The notes beneath the pieces were generated by a model, which was not told the DNA's origin, made no database searches, and saw only the letters and a list, made by a program, of their open reading frames with translations. Shown here one piece after another: positions 7,412 through 8,680 of a DNA stretch of 24,813 nt; the first letter of the stretch is position 1; each line of letters starts with the position of its first letter. Made by a program: the position numbers and the translations under genes. Source of the stretch: a virus; IMG/VR virus record IMGVR_UViG_3300034103_002829, positions 1 to 24,813 of that record; one strand, written 5' to 3'.

Positions 7412-7848
7412 TCGTACCCACCGCCAACTACCCAACATCCAGGGATTATCGCCAGCTCTGGACGTTGGCCCAAACCGCAGCGATTGTCTGCATTGTTGAC
7501 TTTCAACCCGGCAAGCCCCGCACTTGTCGCGACATAGCCAGCACCATTCATTCCCCGGAGTATTCGCCTGAGCTAGTCCAAGTCAGCTCTCGTGGTATTG
7601 GCCACATCTATGCTGAATCAGTCGAAAGTTTCATCGCTCAATGCGAGCACTGCAACCTGGAGTGGCTGGTGCCGCCAGCGGACCCATCGCCTTTAAAAGA
7701 GGAACTGGACCTTACCGATAGGCTGCTTGAAAACCGCAATCAAGTTCTCAGGGCTATACCAGAGTGCCCAATTCACGGCTCAGGTTGCGTACCACATGCA
7801 CTGGAATGGATTGAGCGAGCTAAGGCTCGTTTTGGCGTGAATGAATGA
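7408..7848 (+). CDS. Hypothetical protein, paralogue of the gene at 17873
   Basis: 146 residues from the ATG at 7408 that overlaps the previous stop; an open extension to 7336 is rejected because of that overlap. The core TSRDYRQLWTLAQTAAIVCI, then VDF..., CRDI, and SVESFIAQCEHCNLEWLVPP aligns by eye with the protein at 17873-18451 (TSTNYELLFHLAKRQSVVCE, CKTR, SLEGFSALCKHNNLQWVVPP). Conserved points include the VDF strand, a Tyr/Ser-rich middle, and the C-x2-(H/N)-x-NL(E/Q)W(L/V)VPP ending. The C-terminal 60 residues differ and contain CPIHGSGC. No catalytic motif recognised. Its stop overlaps both methyltransferase-frame starts (ATGAATGA at 7841-7848). Confidence 0.7.
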   Translation: MIVPTANYPTSRDYRQLWTLAQTAAIVCIVDFQPGKPRTCRDIASTIHSPEYSPELVQVSSRGIGHIYAESVESFIAQCEHCNLEWLVPPADPSPLKEELDLTDRLLENRNQVLRAIPECPIHGSGCVPHALEWIERAKARFGVNE

Positions 7849-8680
7849 GTTGGCACTTTTCGCAGGCCATGGCGGCGGCATTCTCGGAGGCCTCCTGTTG
7901 GGACGGCGAACCGTCTGCGCCGTCGAAATTGACGCCGCAGCCAGACAGCGACTCATGGCCCGCCAAGACGACGGCACGCTGCAACCCTTCCCCATCTGGG
8001 ACGACGTTTCCACCTTTGACGGCAAGCCCTGGGCTGGCCTTGTGGATGTCATCTCTGGCGGCTTCCCGTGCCAAGACATCAGCATTGCCGGAAAGGGGGC
8101 AGGGATCACCGGCGAACGATCAGGTCTCTGGCGTGAATTTGCTCGGATCATTTGCGAGGTTCGACCGCGCTACGTCCTCGTGGAAAACTCCCCAGCTCTC
8201 GTTGCTCGGGGGCTCGGAACCGTTCTCGGAGACTTGGCCGAGATGGGGTTTGATGCGCGATGGGGTGTGTTTGGAGCAGATGAAGCCGCCCTCGCGACTC
8301 ATTGCGGAGAGATCCCGCTCATCCACAACCGCGATCGACTCTGGATCGTGGGTTTCCGAAAGGGCACCGACCCCGACGGTTTGCGGGAACTACAACCGGA
8401 AAGGATCCAGTCCGACCAGTGGAGACGGGCTGGCGACGTGGGTAAAACAAAGACTGCCGACGCCCACGGTCAACGACAGCAAGAACGTCGGTGGGCCGTC
8501 ACAGTTGAGGCGGGACACCATTCCGCTGAACGCACTGGTTGGTGGTCCGCTGAACCCGACGTGGGTCGAGTGGCTCATGGGGTGGCCGATCGGGTGGACC
8601 GACTTAGAGGGCTTGGAAACGGGCAGGTTCCAACAATGGAAGTACTTGCATGGGAGACGTTGACCACGGGCGAGCCCTAA
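7841..8680 (+). CDS. DNA (cytosine-5) methyltransferase
   Basis: 279 residues. The C5-methyltransferase motifs appear in order: I FAGHGGGILG (7-16, SAM binding), IV GGFPCQDIS (73-81, catalytic Cys78 as the nucleophile), VI VLVENSPAL (112-120), VIII HNRDRLWIVGF (162-172) and X RLRGLGNGQVP (254-264). The stretch between VIII and X, which holds target recognition, is short (about 80 residues), so the protein is compact. It transfers a methyl group from SAM to cytosine in double-stranded DNA. No restriction endonuclease is next to it, so it is best read as a solitary phage methylase that protects the element from host restriction. The specificity cannot be read by eye. The start ATG overlaps the end of the preceding gene. 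Confidence 0.9.
   Translation: MNELALFAGHGGGILGGLLLGRRTVCAVEIDAAARQRLMARQDDGTLQPFPIWDDVSTFDGKPWAGLVDVISGGFPCQDISIAGKGAGITGERSGLWREFARIICEVRPRYVLVENSPALVARGLGTVLGDLAEMGFDARWGVFGADEAALATHCGEIPLIHNRDRLWIVGFRKGTDPDGLRELQPERIQSDQWRRAGDVGKTKTADAHGQRQQERRWAVTVEAGHHSAERTGWWSAEPDVGRVAHGVADRVDRLRGLGNGQVPTMEVLAWETLTTGEP
7845..8663 (+). CDS. Overlapping second frame of the methyltransferase locus
   Basis: A 272-residue frame lies wholly inside the methyltransferase gene, offset by one base, with its own ATG (7845) overlapping the preceding stop as ATGA. It is not random: it contains SSWKTPQLSLLGGSEPFSET then WPRWGLMRDG (111-140), PTPTVCGNYNRKG, TSGDGLATWV, LPTPTVNDSK and LNPTWVEWLMGWPIGWTDLE (236-255). 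I recall these segments from annotated phage proteins beginning MSW(H/R)(F/Y)SQ. Either both frames are translated, or the similarity to known proteins is a passive image of the conserved methyltransferase frame. No enzymatic motif is recognised in this frame. Confidence 0.5.
   Translation: MSWHFSQAMAAAFSEASCWDGEPSAPSKLTPQPDSDSWPAKTTARCNPSPSGTTFPPLTASPGLALWMSSLAASRAKTSALPERGQGSPANDQVSGVNLLGSFARFDRATSSWKTPQLSLLGGSEPFSETWPRWGLMRDGVCLEQMKPPSRLIAERSRSSTTAIDSGSWVSERAPTPTVCGNYNRKGSSPTSGDGLATWVKQRLPTPTVNDSKNVGGPSQLRRDTIPLNALVGGPLNPTWVEWLMGWPIGWTDLEGLETGRFQQWKYLHGRR

Follow-up and report, generated by a model that had tools for sequence, protein, structure and literature searches.

Both of two long, almost completely overlapping reading frames on one strand of a viral DNA are under purifying selection over their full length, and we conclude that dual coding at this locus is real. 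The first frame, P1, encodes a C5-cytosine methyltransferase, and the second, P2, lies in the +1 frame. We put the probability at about 0.9 that the two are halves of one split C5 methylase, translated separately and acting as a heterodimer on phage or prophage DNA. P1 would carry SAM binding and catalysis (motifs I-VIII) together with the C-terminal motif X helix, while P2 would contribute the target-recognition region (TRD) and motif IX. Ribosomes that have just completed the upstream gene would probably start P1 and P2 separately, from sites 4 nt apart. We infer that the two polypeptides form an active heterodimer requiring both partners, and that the resulting methylation of phage or prophage DNA presumably counters host restriction.

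Locus layout and tandem starts

The window, by which we mean the whole 24,813-nt stretch that was analyzed, is an IMG/VR virus record in which portal, Mu F-like head protein and terminase genes are present. The features of the methylase locus are collected in Table 1. A preliminary description of this DNA had reported the two overlapping frames, as well as the packing of both starts and the previous stop into one short site, and each of these observations holds.

Table 1. Features of the overlapping methylase locus, in window positions.
Feature	Positions	Strand	Basis or remark
Upstream gene, 170 aa	7336..7848	+	ORF; stop TGA 7846-7848 inside the tandem-start site
Tandem-start site, ATGAATGA	7841..7848	+	P1 start 7841, P2 start 7845 (4 nt apart), upstream stop
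P1 (alpha-like), C5-cytosine methyltransferase, 279 aa	7841..8680	+	Motifs I-VIII and X, without motif IX
P1 motif I (LFAGHGGG)	7856..7879	+	Sequence and alignment
P1 motif IV, catalytic Cys (GGFPCQD)	8057..8077	+	G73, G74, F75, P76 and C77 invariant in 117 sequences
P1 motif VI (ENS)	8183..8191	+	N116 invariant; E115 and S117 at least 90% (alignment)
P1 motif VIII (RDRLW)	8330..8344	+	R164, R166 and W168 invariant (alignment)
P1 motif X (GLGNGQVP)	8609..8632	+	G259-V263 at least 90% conserved
P2 (beta-like), +1-frame protein, 272 aa	7845..8663	+	Overprinted N-terminal part, then predicted C-terminal TRD and motif IX
P2 TRD-like region, [WL]PTP units (APTPTVCGNYNRKG, LPTPTVNDSKN..PSQ)	8364..8549	+	L298 and L307, both single-frame relatives, have a similar segment between VIII and IX
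P2 predicted motif IX (LNPTWVEWLMGWPIGWTDLE)	8550..8609	+	Adjoins P1 motif X in the other frame; IX-X order as in L298 and L307

At the tandem-start site, TGA occurs in all three frames (7838, 7842 and 7846). The upstream gene, which has no family match, ends within the site, and in 78 of 115 homologous loci an upstream ORF likewise ends at +1 or +5, counted from P1's first base. Tandem starts of the form NTGNATG are found in 184 of 339 unique overlapping loci, most commonly as ATGAATG, GTGAATG or TTGAATG, and in deeper clades the P2 start lies further inside P1. The second codon of P1, which is the source of the P2 ATG, is AAT in all 106 cases where it encodes Asn; elsewhere AAC is used 567 times and AAT 317 times. 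In those loci having any SD-like match, the matches peak 4-5 nt before P1, equivalent to 8-9 nt before P2. The window has no obvious ribosome-binding site or good SD at its tandem-start site, and reinitiation from the upstream gene is therefore likely. Elsewhere in the window, a 386-aa ORF on the minus strand (697-1857) has a weak phosphotransferase (APH) match in Pfam, at 26.3 bits against a cut-off of 23.2.

P1 has the catalytic half of a C5 methylase

P1 has the hallmarks of C5-cytosine methyltransferases: a SAM-binding fold, motif I, the catalytic PCQ of motif IV, motif VI, the RxR of motif VIII and the GNxxxP of motif X. It matches phrog_363 (E 6e-58) and, in Pfam, PF00145 (E=1.4e-26), the latter across profile positions 4-190 of 324 only. 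A PF00145 enzyme holds a TRD and motif IX between motifs VIII and X of one polypeptide; P1 lacks this segment, which is found in the +1 frame. The AlphaFold model of P1 has a confident large domain to about residue 190, followed by pLDDT below 50 at residues 192-261. Its best PDB fold is M.HaeIII (1dct, 179 columns) and it also matches M.HhaI, the matches to these two enzymes spanning about 180 columns. As the model contains the large domain only and the IX/TRD segment is in P2, we predict that the small domain absent from P1 is supplied by P2. Motif VI in C5 methylases is usually ENV. Across nearly the whole family described here it is ENS, and its bases overlap a conserved WKT/WRT of P2.

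Both frames are kept open and constrained

In the window alone, synonymous shuffling gives P of about 0.02 for a +1 stretch that stays open over 272 codons or more, which is only suggestive. We fetched 80 viral loci using patterns derived from P1 alone. Together with the window, these 81 loci contain 40 stops in the +1 frame compared to 371 (sd 13) expected after synonymous shuffling, and most of the 40 are the stop that terminates P2 itself, close to where P1 ends. The +2 frame of the same P1-selected loci has 1098 stops, with 936 expected. We also counted stops in 50 distinct loci where P2 aligns end to end, a set for which the selection is more biased than for the 81. Here, the +1 frame has 0 stops against 118 expected over P1 codons 4-165 and 0 against 54 over codons 176-257. 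In the reverse test, with synonymous P2 codons shuffled over 176-257, the P1 frame has 0 stops where 109 are expected. Together, the forward and reverse tests show that both frames are kept open over the whole length. The preliminary description had wavered between real dual coding and a mis-annotation that follows the methylase, and had named in advance the accumulation of second-frame stops in homologues as the result that would count against coding. Such stops do not accumulate.

Substitutions are distributed as expected for two coding frames. P1 third positions take only 35-53% of the substitutions between close pairs; the third-position share is about 0.6-0.8 in most control pairs of real genes. 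For the window and one relative, L014, the share is 0.41 in P1 vs 0.60-0.61 in two long shared flanking genes, a comparison confined to evident real genes because antisense shadow ORFs contaminate the flanking-gene control. Several fourfold sites in P1 are frozen at places of P2 conservation, including V114 (GTG in 101/101, P2 Trp), A133 (GCC in 110/110, P2 Pro) and G136 (GGG in 117/117, P2 Gly). Third bases of P1 are similarly frozen under the predicted motif IX of P2, at P239 (CCC, 103/106), G247 (GGG, 110/112) and A249 (GCC, 112/112). The synonymous-site comparison across homologues that the preliminary description had called for thus finds P1 third positions constrained.

The position of most frequent substitution changes along the gene. 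It is the third position of P1 codons in 1-175, the first position, which is the wobble of P2, in 176-257, and the third again in 258-275. The lead of the P2 wobble is clearest under the P2 segment LNPxWVEWLMGWP, where the substitution shares by P1 position are 0.49/0.24/0.27, and identity is 0.86 in P2 vs 0.76 in P1. At motif X the shares are 0.28/0.23/0.49 and the P1 wobble leads again. The primary coding frame thus passes from P1 to P2 and back to P1, changing over where motif VIII ends and where motif X begins.

P2 resembles the recognition half

P2 matches the profiles phrog_1008 (E=8.7e-20) and phrog_26627 (1e-13). It has no Pfam match, profile searches against Pfam (including PF00145) and PDB chains were empty, and in such searches the N-terminal 165 residues resemble nothing known. 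Modeled alone with AlphaFold, P2 gave a low-confidence structure (mean pLDDT 58.6) and no fold match. Given this, motif IX was identified through rare single-frame relatives, and the assignment is based on position in those relatives and on sequence pattern. P2 ends in LNPTWVEWLMGWPIGWTDL, which we take as the motif IX missing from P1, and in the single-frame loci L298 (8e-12) and L307 (7e-6) the profile of its C-terminus hits the segment that precedes motif X. From these sequence relationships, P2 appears to be the half of this C5 methylase that carries the TRD and motif IX. The preliminary description had pointed to LNPTWVEWLMGWPIGWTDLE and WPRWGLMRDG in P2, both of which are present, and to GLETGRFQQW (8610-8639) as sharing bases with GLGNGQVP of P1, which it does. 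It was right to raise dual coding, and what it did not recognize is the identity of P2 as the TRD/motif IX half.

Within the TRD-like region, the most variable codon position is the wobble of P2. The [WL]PTP units of P2 residues 174-235 vary across loci, from 0 to 4 by a simple pattern, and two modules recur, GNYNRKG (47 of 339 loci) and DSKN..PSQ (52 of 339). It is as if recognition cassettes were exchanged in P2, with the same bases encoding a variable loop of P1. A homing endonuclease inserted in a phage methylase has been described for ShiLan (PMC11855218). We rejected a hidden homing endonuclease for P2, which covers the whole gene with no insertion.

Relatives, intermediate architectures and annotation

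The P2 frame is conserved in 88 phage records, whose hosts are distantly related (Acinetobacter, Pseudomonas, Salmonella, Vibrio, Microcystis, Stenotrophomonas, Mycobacterium, Arthrobacter and Paenibacillus) and in 180 genome-contig stretches from Proteobacteria, Verrucomicrobia, Planctomycetes, Spirochaetes and others. DNA like the version in Salmonella phage S9-5 occurs in only 4 of 5426 E. coli genomes. We located motifs I-VIII, motif X and the C-terminal end of P2 by searching the fetched loci and the window with profiles. An overlapping +1 ORF holds the P2 C-terminus, and the P1 frame holds motif X, at 335 loci, a count that includes some redundancy between scans. Selection maintains the split-frame arrangement across hundreds of phages and prophages.

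L298 and L307 represent a rare form in which one ORF holds motifs I-VIII, a WPTP-type segment, a IX segment (QLNPDWVECLMGFPIGWTD in L298 and MLSPDWVECLMNYPLGWTD in L307) and then RAKRLKxLGN, so that TRD, IX and X follow one another in canonical order. Stops in their +1 frames are as frequent as neutrality predicts, 19 where 21.0 are expected and 14 where 14.4 are expected, respectively. These loci are a natural control in which the +1 frame is released once motif IX is in the methylase frame. The preliminary description had suggested looking for genomes with one frame open, and this test agrees with the stop and synonymous-site tests that dual coding is real. Another form occurs in five loci (L077, L085, L094, L207 and L267), where P1 stops soon after motif VIII or is without motif X, and P2 continues via LNPxWVE into RVDRLKAIGNGQVP or an equivalent. 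Motifs IX and X are together in the second ORF of these five and of Arthrobacter phage ArV1. A rough, midpoint-rooted tree of the catalytic domain has the overlap at its root, with fused forms scattered among overlapping ones and 17 label changes, a number inflated by unclassified fragments; as sampling is biased to P2-containing loci, the tree does not settle the ancestral state.

Three further loci depart from these forms. At L092 (2986-3845) the frames are swapped after motif VIII, such that I-VIII are in frame with the P2 TRD/IX and motif X is in another frame, reflecting either a natural indel or a sequencing error. L301 (2501-3196) has an ORF with TRD, IX and X, and no methylase I-VIII domain was detected at the locus. 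In L395 (1501-2262), from the E. coli PCP07014 prophage, P1 is a RefSeq pseudogene with an internal stop; a stop interrupts P2 very close to that point too, and the two frames are thus disrupted jointly.

We inspected 12 phage records, and the majority list only one of the two genes. P2 alone is annotated in L004, L007 and L008, a single frame, in contrast to these P1, in L001, L002, L005, L006, L009, L011 and L012, and both genes only in L003 and L010. The annotated frames are often labeled hypothetical protein or DNA methyltransferase. Both phrog_363 (P1) and phrog_1008 (P2) carry the label DNA methyltransferase, and neither label indicates that the two proteins are read from the same DNA. 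Mis-annotation does exist, but in the direction opposite to that considered in the preliminary description: records omit one of two real genes.

Discussion

The open +1 frame could be a by-product of methylase composition and conservation, and from the window alone, with P of about 0.02, one gene is insufficient to exclude this. The stop and synonymous-site tests refute it, leaving it with a negligible probability: loci selected by P1 have 40 stops in place of 371, third positions change less than in flanking genes, and single-frame relatives have neutral stop density. It is also very improbable, though less so, that programmed frameshifting joins motifs I-VIII of P1 to the TRD/IX of P2 and then returns to motif X, producing one polypeptide. 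A double frameshift would also change the frame of selection at domain borders. However, it would require two shifts per protein and would not call for a stop-free P2 N-terminal part (0 vs 118), a stop-free P1 at 176-257 under P2 codon shuffling (0 vs 109), a P2 ATG held by AAT in 106/106 or P1 third bases frozen by W113, P132 and G135 of P2. Because the P2 start and N-terminal part are constrained, separate initiation of P1 and P2, not frameshifting, is strongly supported by the sequences.

A third possibility is that P2, although genuine and translated, is a protein independent of the methylase, e.g. a regulator or an anti-restriction factor. The missing Pfam match, the low-confidence AlphaFold model and the N-terminal 165 residues that are like nothing known would all fit such a protein. 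We nevertheless regard it as improbable, if the least so of the three, because the C-terminal segment of P2 is found between VIII and X in single-frame methylases, exactly that segment is missing from P1, and selection changes frame at methylase domain boundaries. The split methylase is thus our preferred reading. Beyond it, and at somewhat less than even odds, we propose a widespread class of phage methylase in which one NTGNATG tandem-start site would yield both subunits, fully overlapping, at a constant ratio, with the N-terminal part of P2 having arisen by overprinting on the catalytic domain and the overlap moving in the course of evolution between single-frame, AquI-like and EcoHK31I-like states.

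Annotation of bacterial and phage genomes seldom accepts long overlaps on the same strand, and for P1/P2 the statistical proof is strong. The overlap has a domain-level reason, with the catalytic half in one frame and the predicted recognition half in the other, and it comes with natural single-frame controls and a simple assay. Databases often list half an enzyme, and predictions of methylation from P1 alone may therefore fail. The locus is also a system for studying the origin of overlapping genes and the control of subunit ratios by tandem starts.

M.EcoHK31I, alongside M.EaeI, is a two-polypeptide C5 methylase, and its small subunit was reportedly found by Lee, Kam and Shaw in 1995 to be encoded inside the gene for the large subunit, in a different reading frame. 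M.EcoHK31I (YGGCCR) has motifs I-VIII and X in the large subunit and IX in the small subunit, with the predicted TRD placed in the large subunit, and M.AquI alpha/beta (CYCGRG) is a C5 methylase naturally split in two before IX-X (PMC3404938). By analogy, M.EcoHK31I appears to be the closest known system. The likeness is one of motif distribution, P1 having I-VIII and X without IX and P2 having the predicted IX, along with the overlapping frames, which are both under selection here and are as reported for M.EcoHK31I. Unlike in M.EcoHK31I, P2 is almost the length of P1, its start lies 4 nt downstream of the P1 start, P2 and not the large subunit contains the TRD-like region, and the locus is found in phages and prophages. 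The M.AquI partition (I-VIII / IX-X) is shown by the five loci with an early P1 end and by phage ArV1, whereas the window has motif X in P1, not in the small subunit, and so IX and X are apart. The Thermus rnpA-rpmH overlap differs in that its proteins are unrelated and that the window, without a clear SD, probably uses coupling. Paenibacillus phage Diva has a similar pair in gp49/gp50, where gp50 is annotated as a g49 internal gene and DNA methyltransferase; there P2 is shorter, its start is internal and no subunit function is assigned. What is new at the present locus is that the two frames overlap almost completely, beginning at tandem starts 4 nt apart, together with the wide spread of the overlap in phages and bacteria and the intermediates in architecture.
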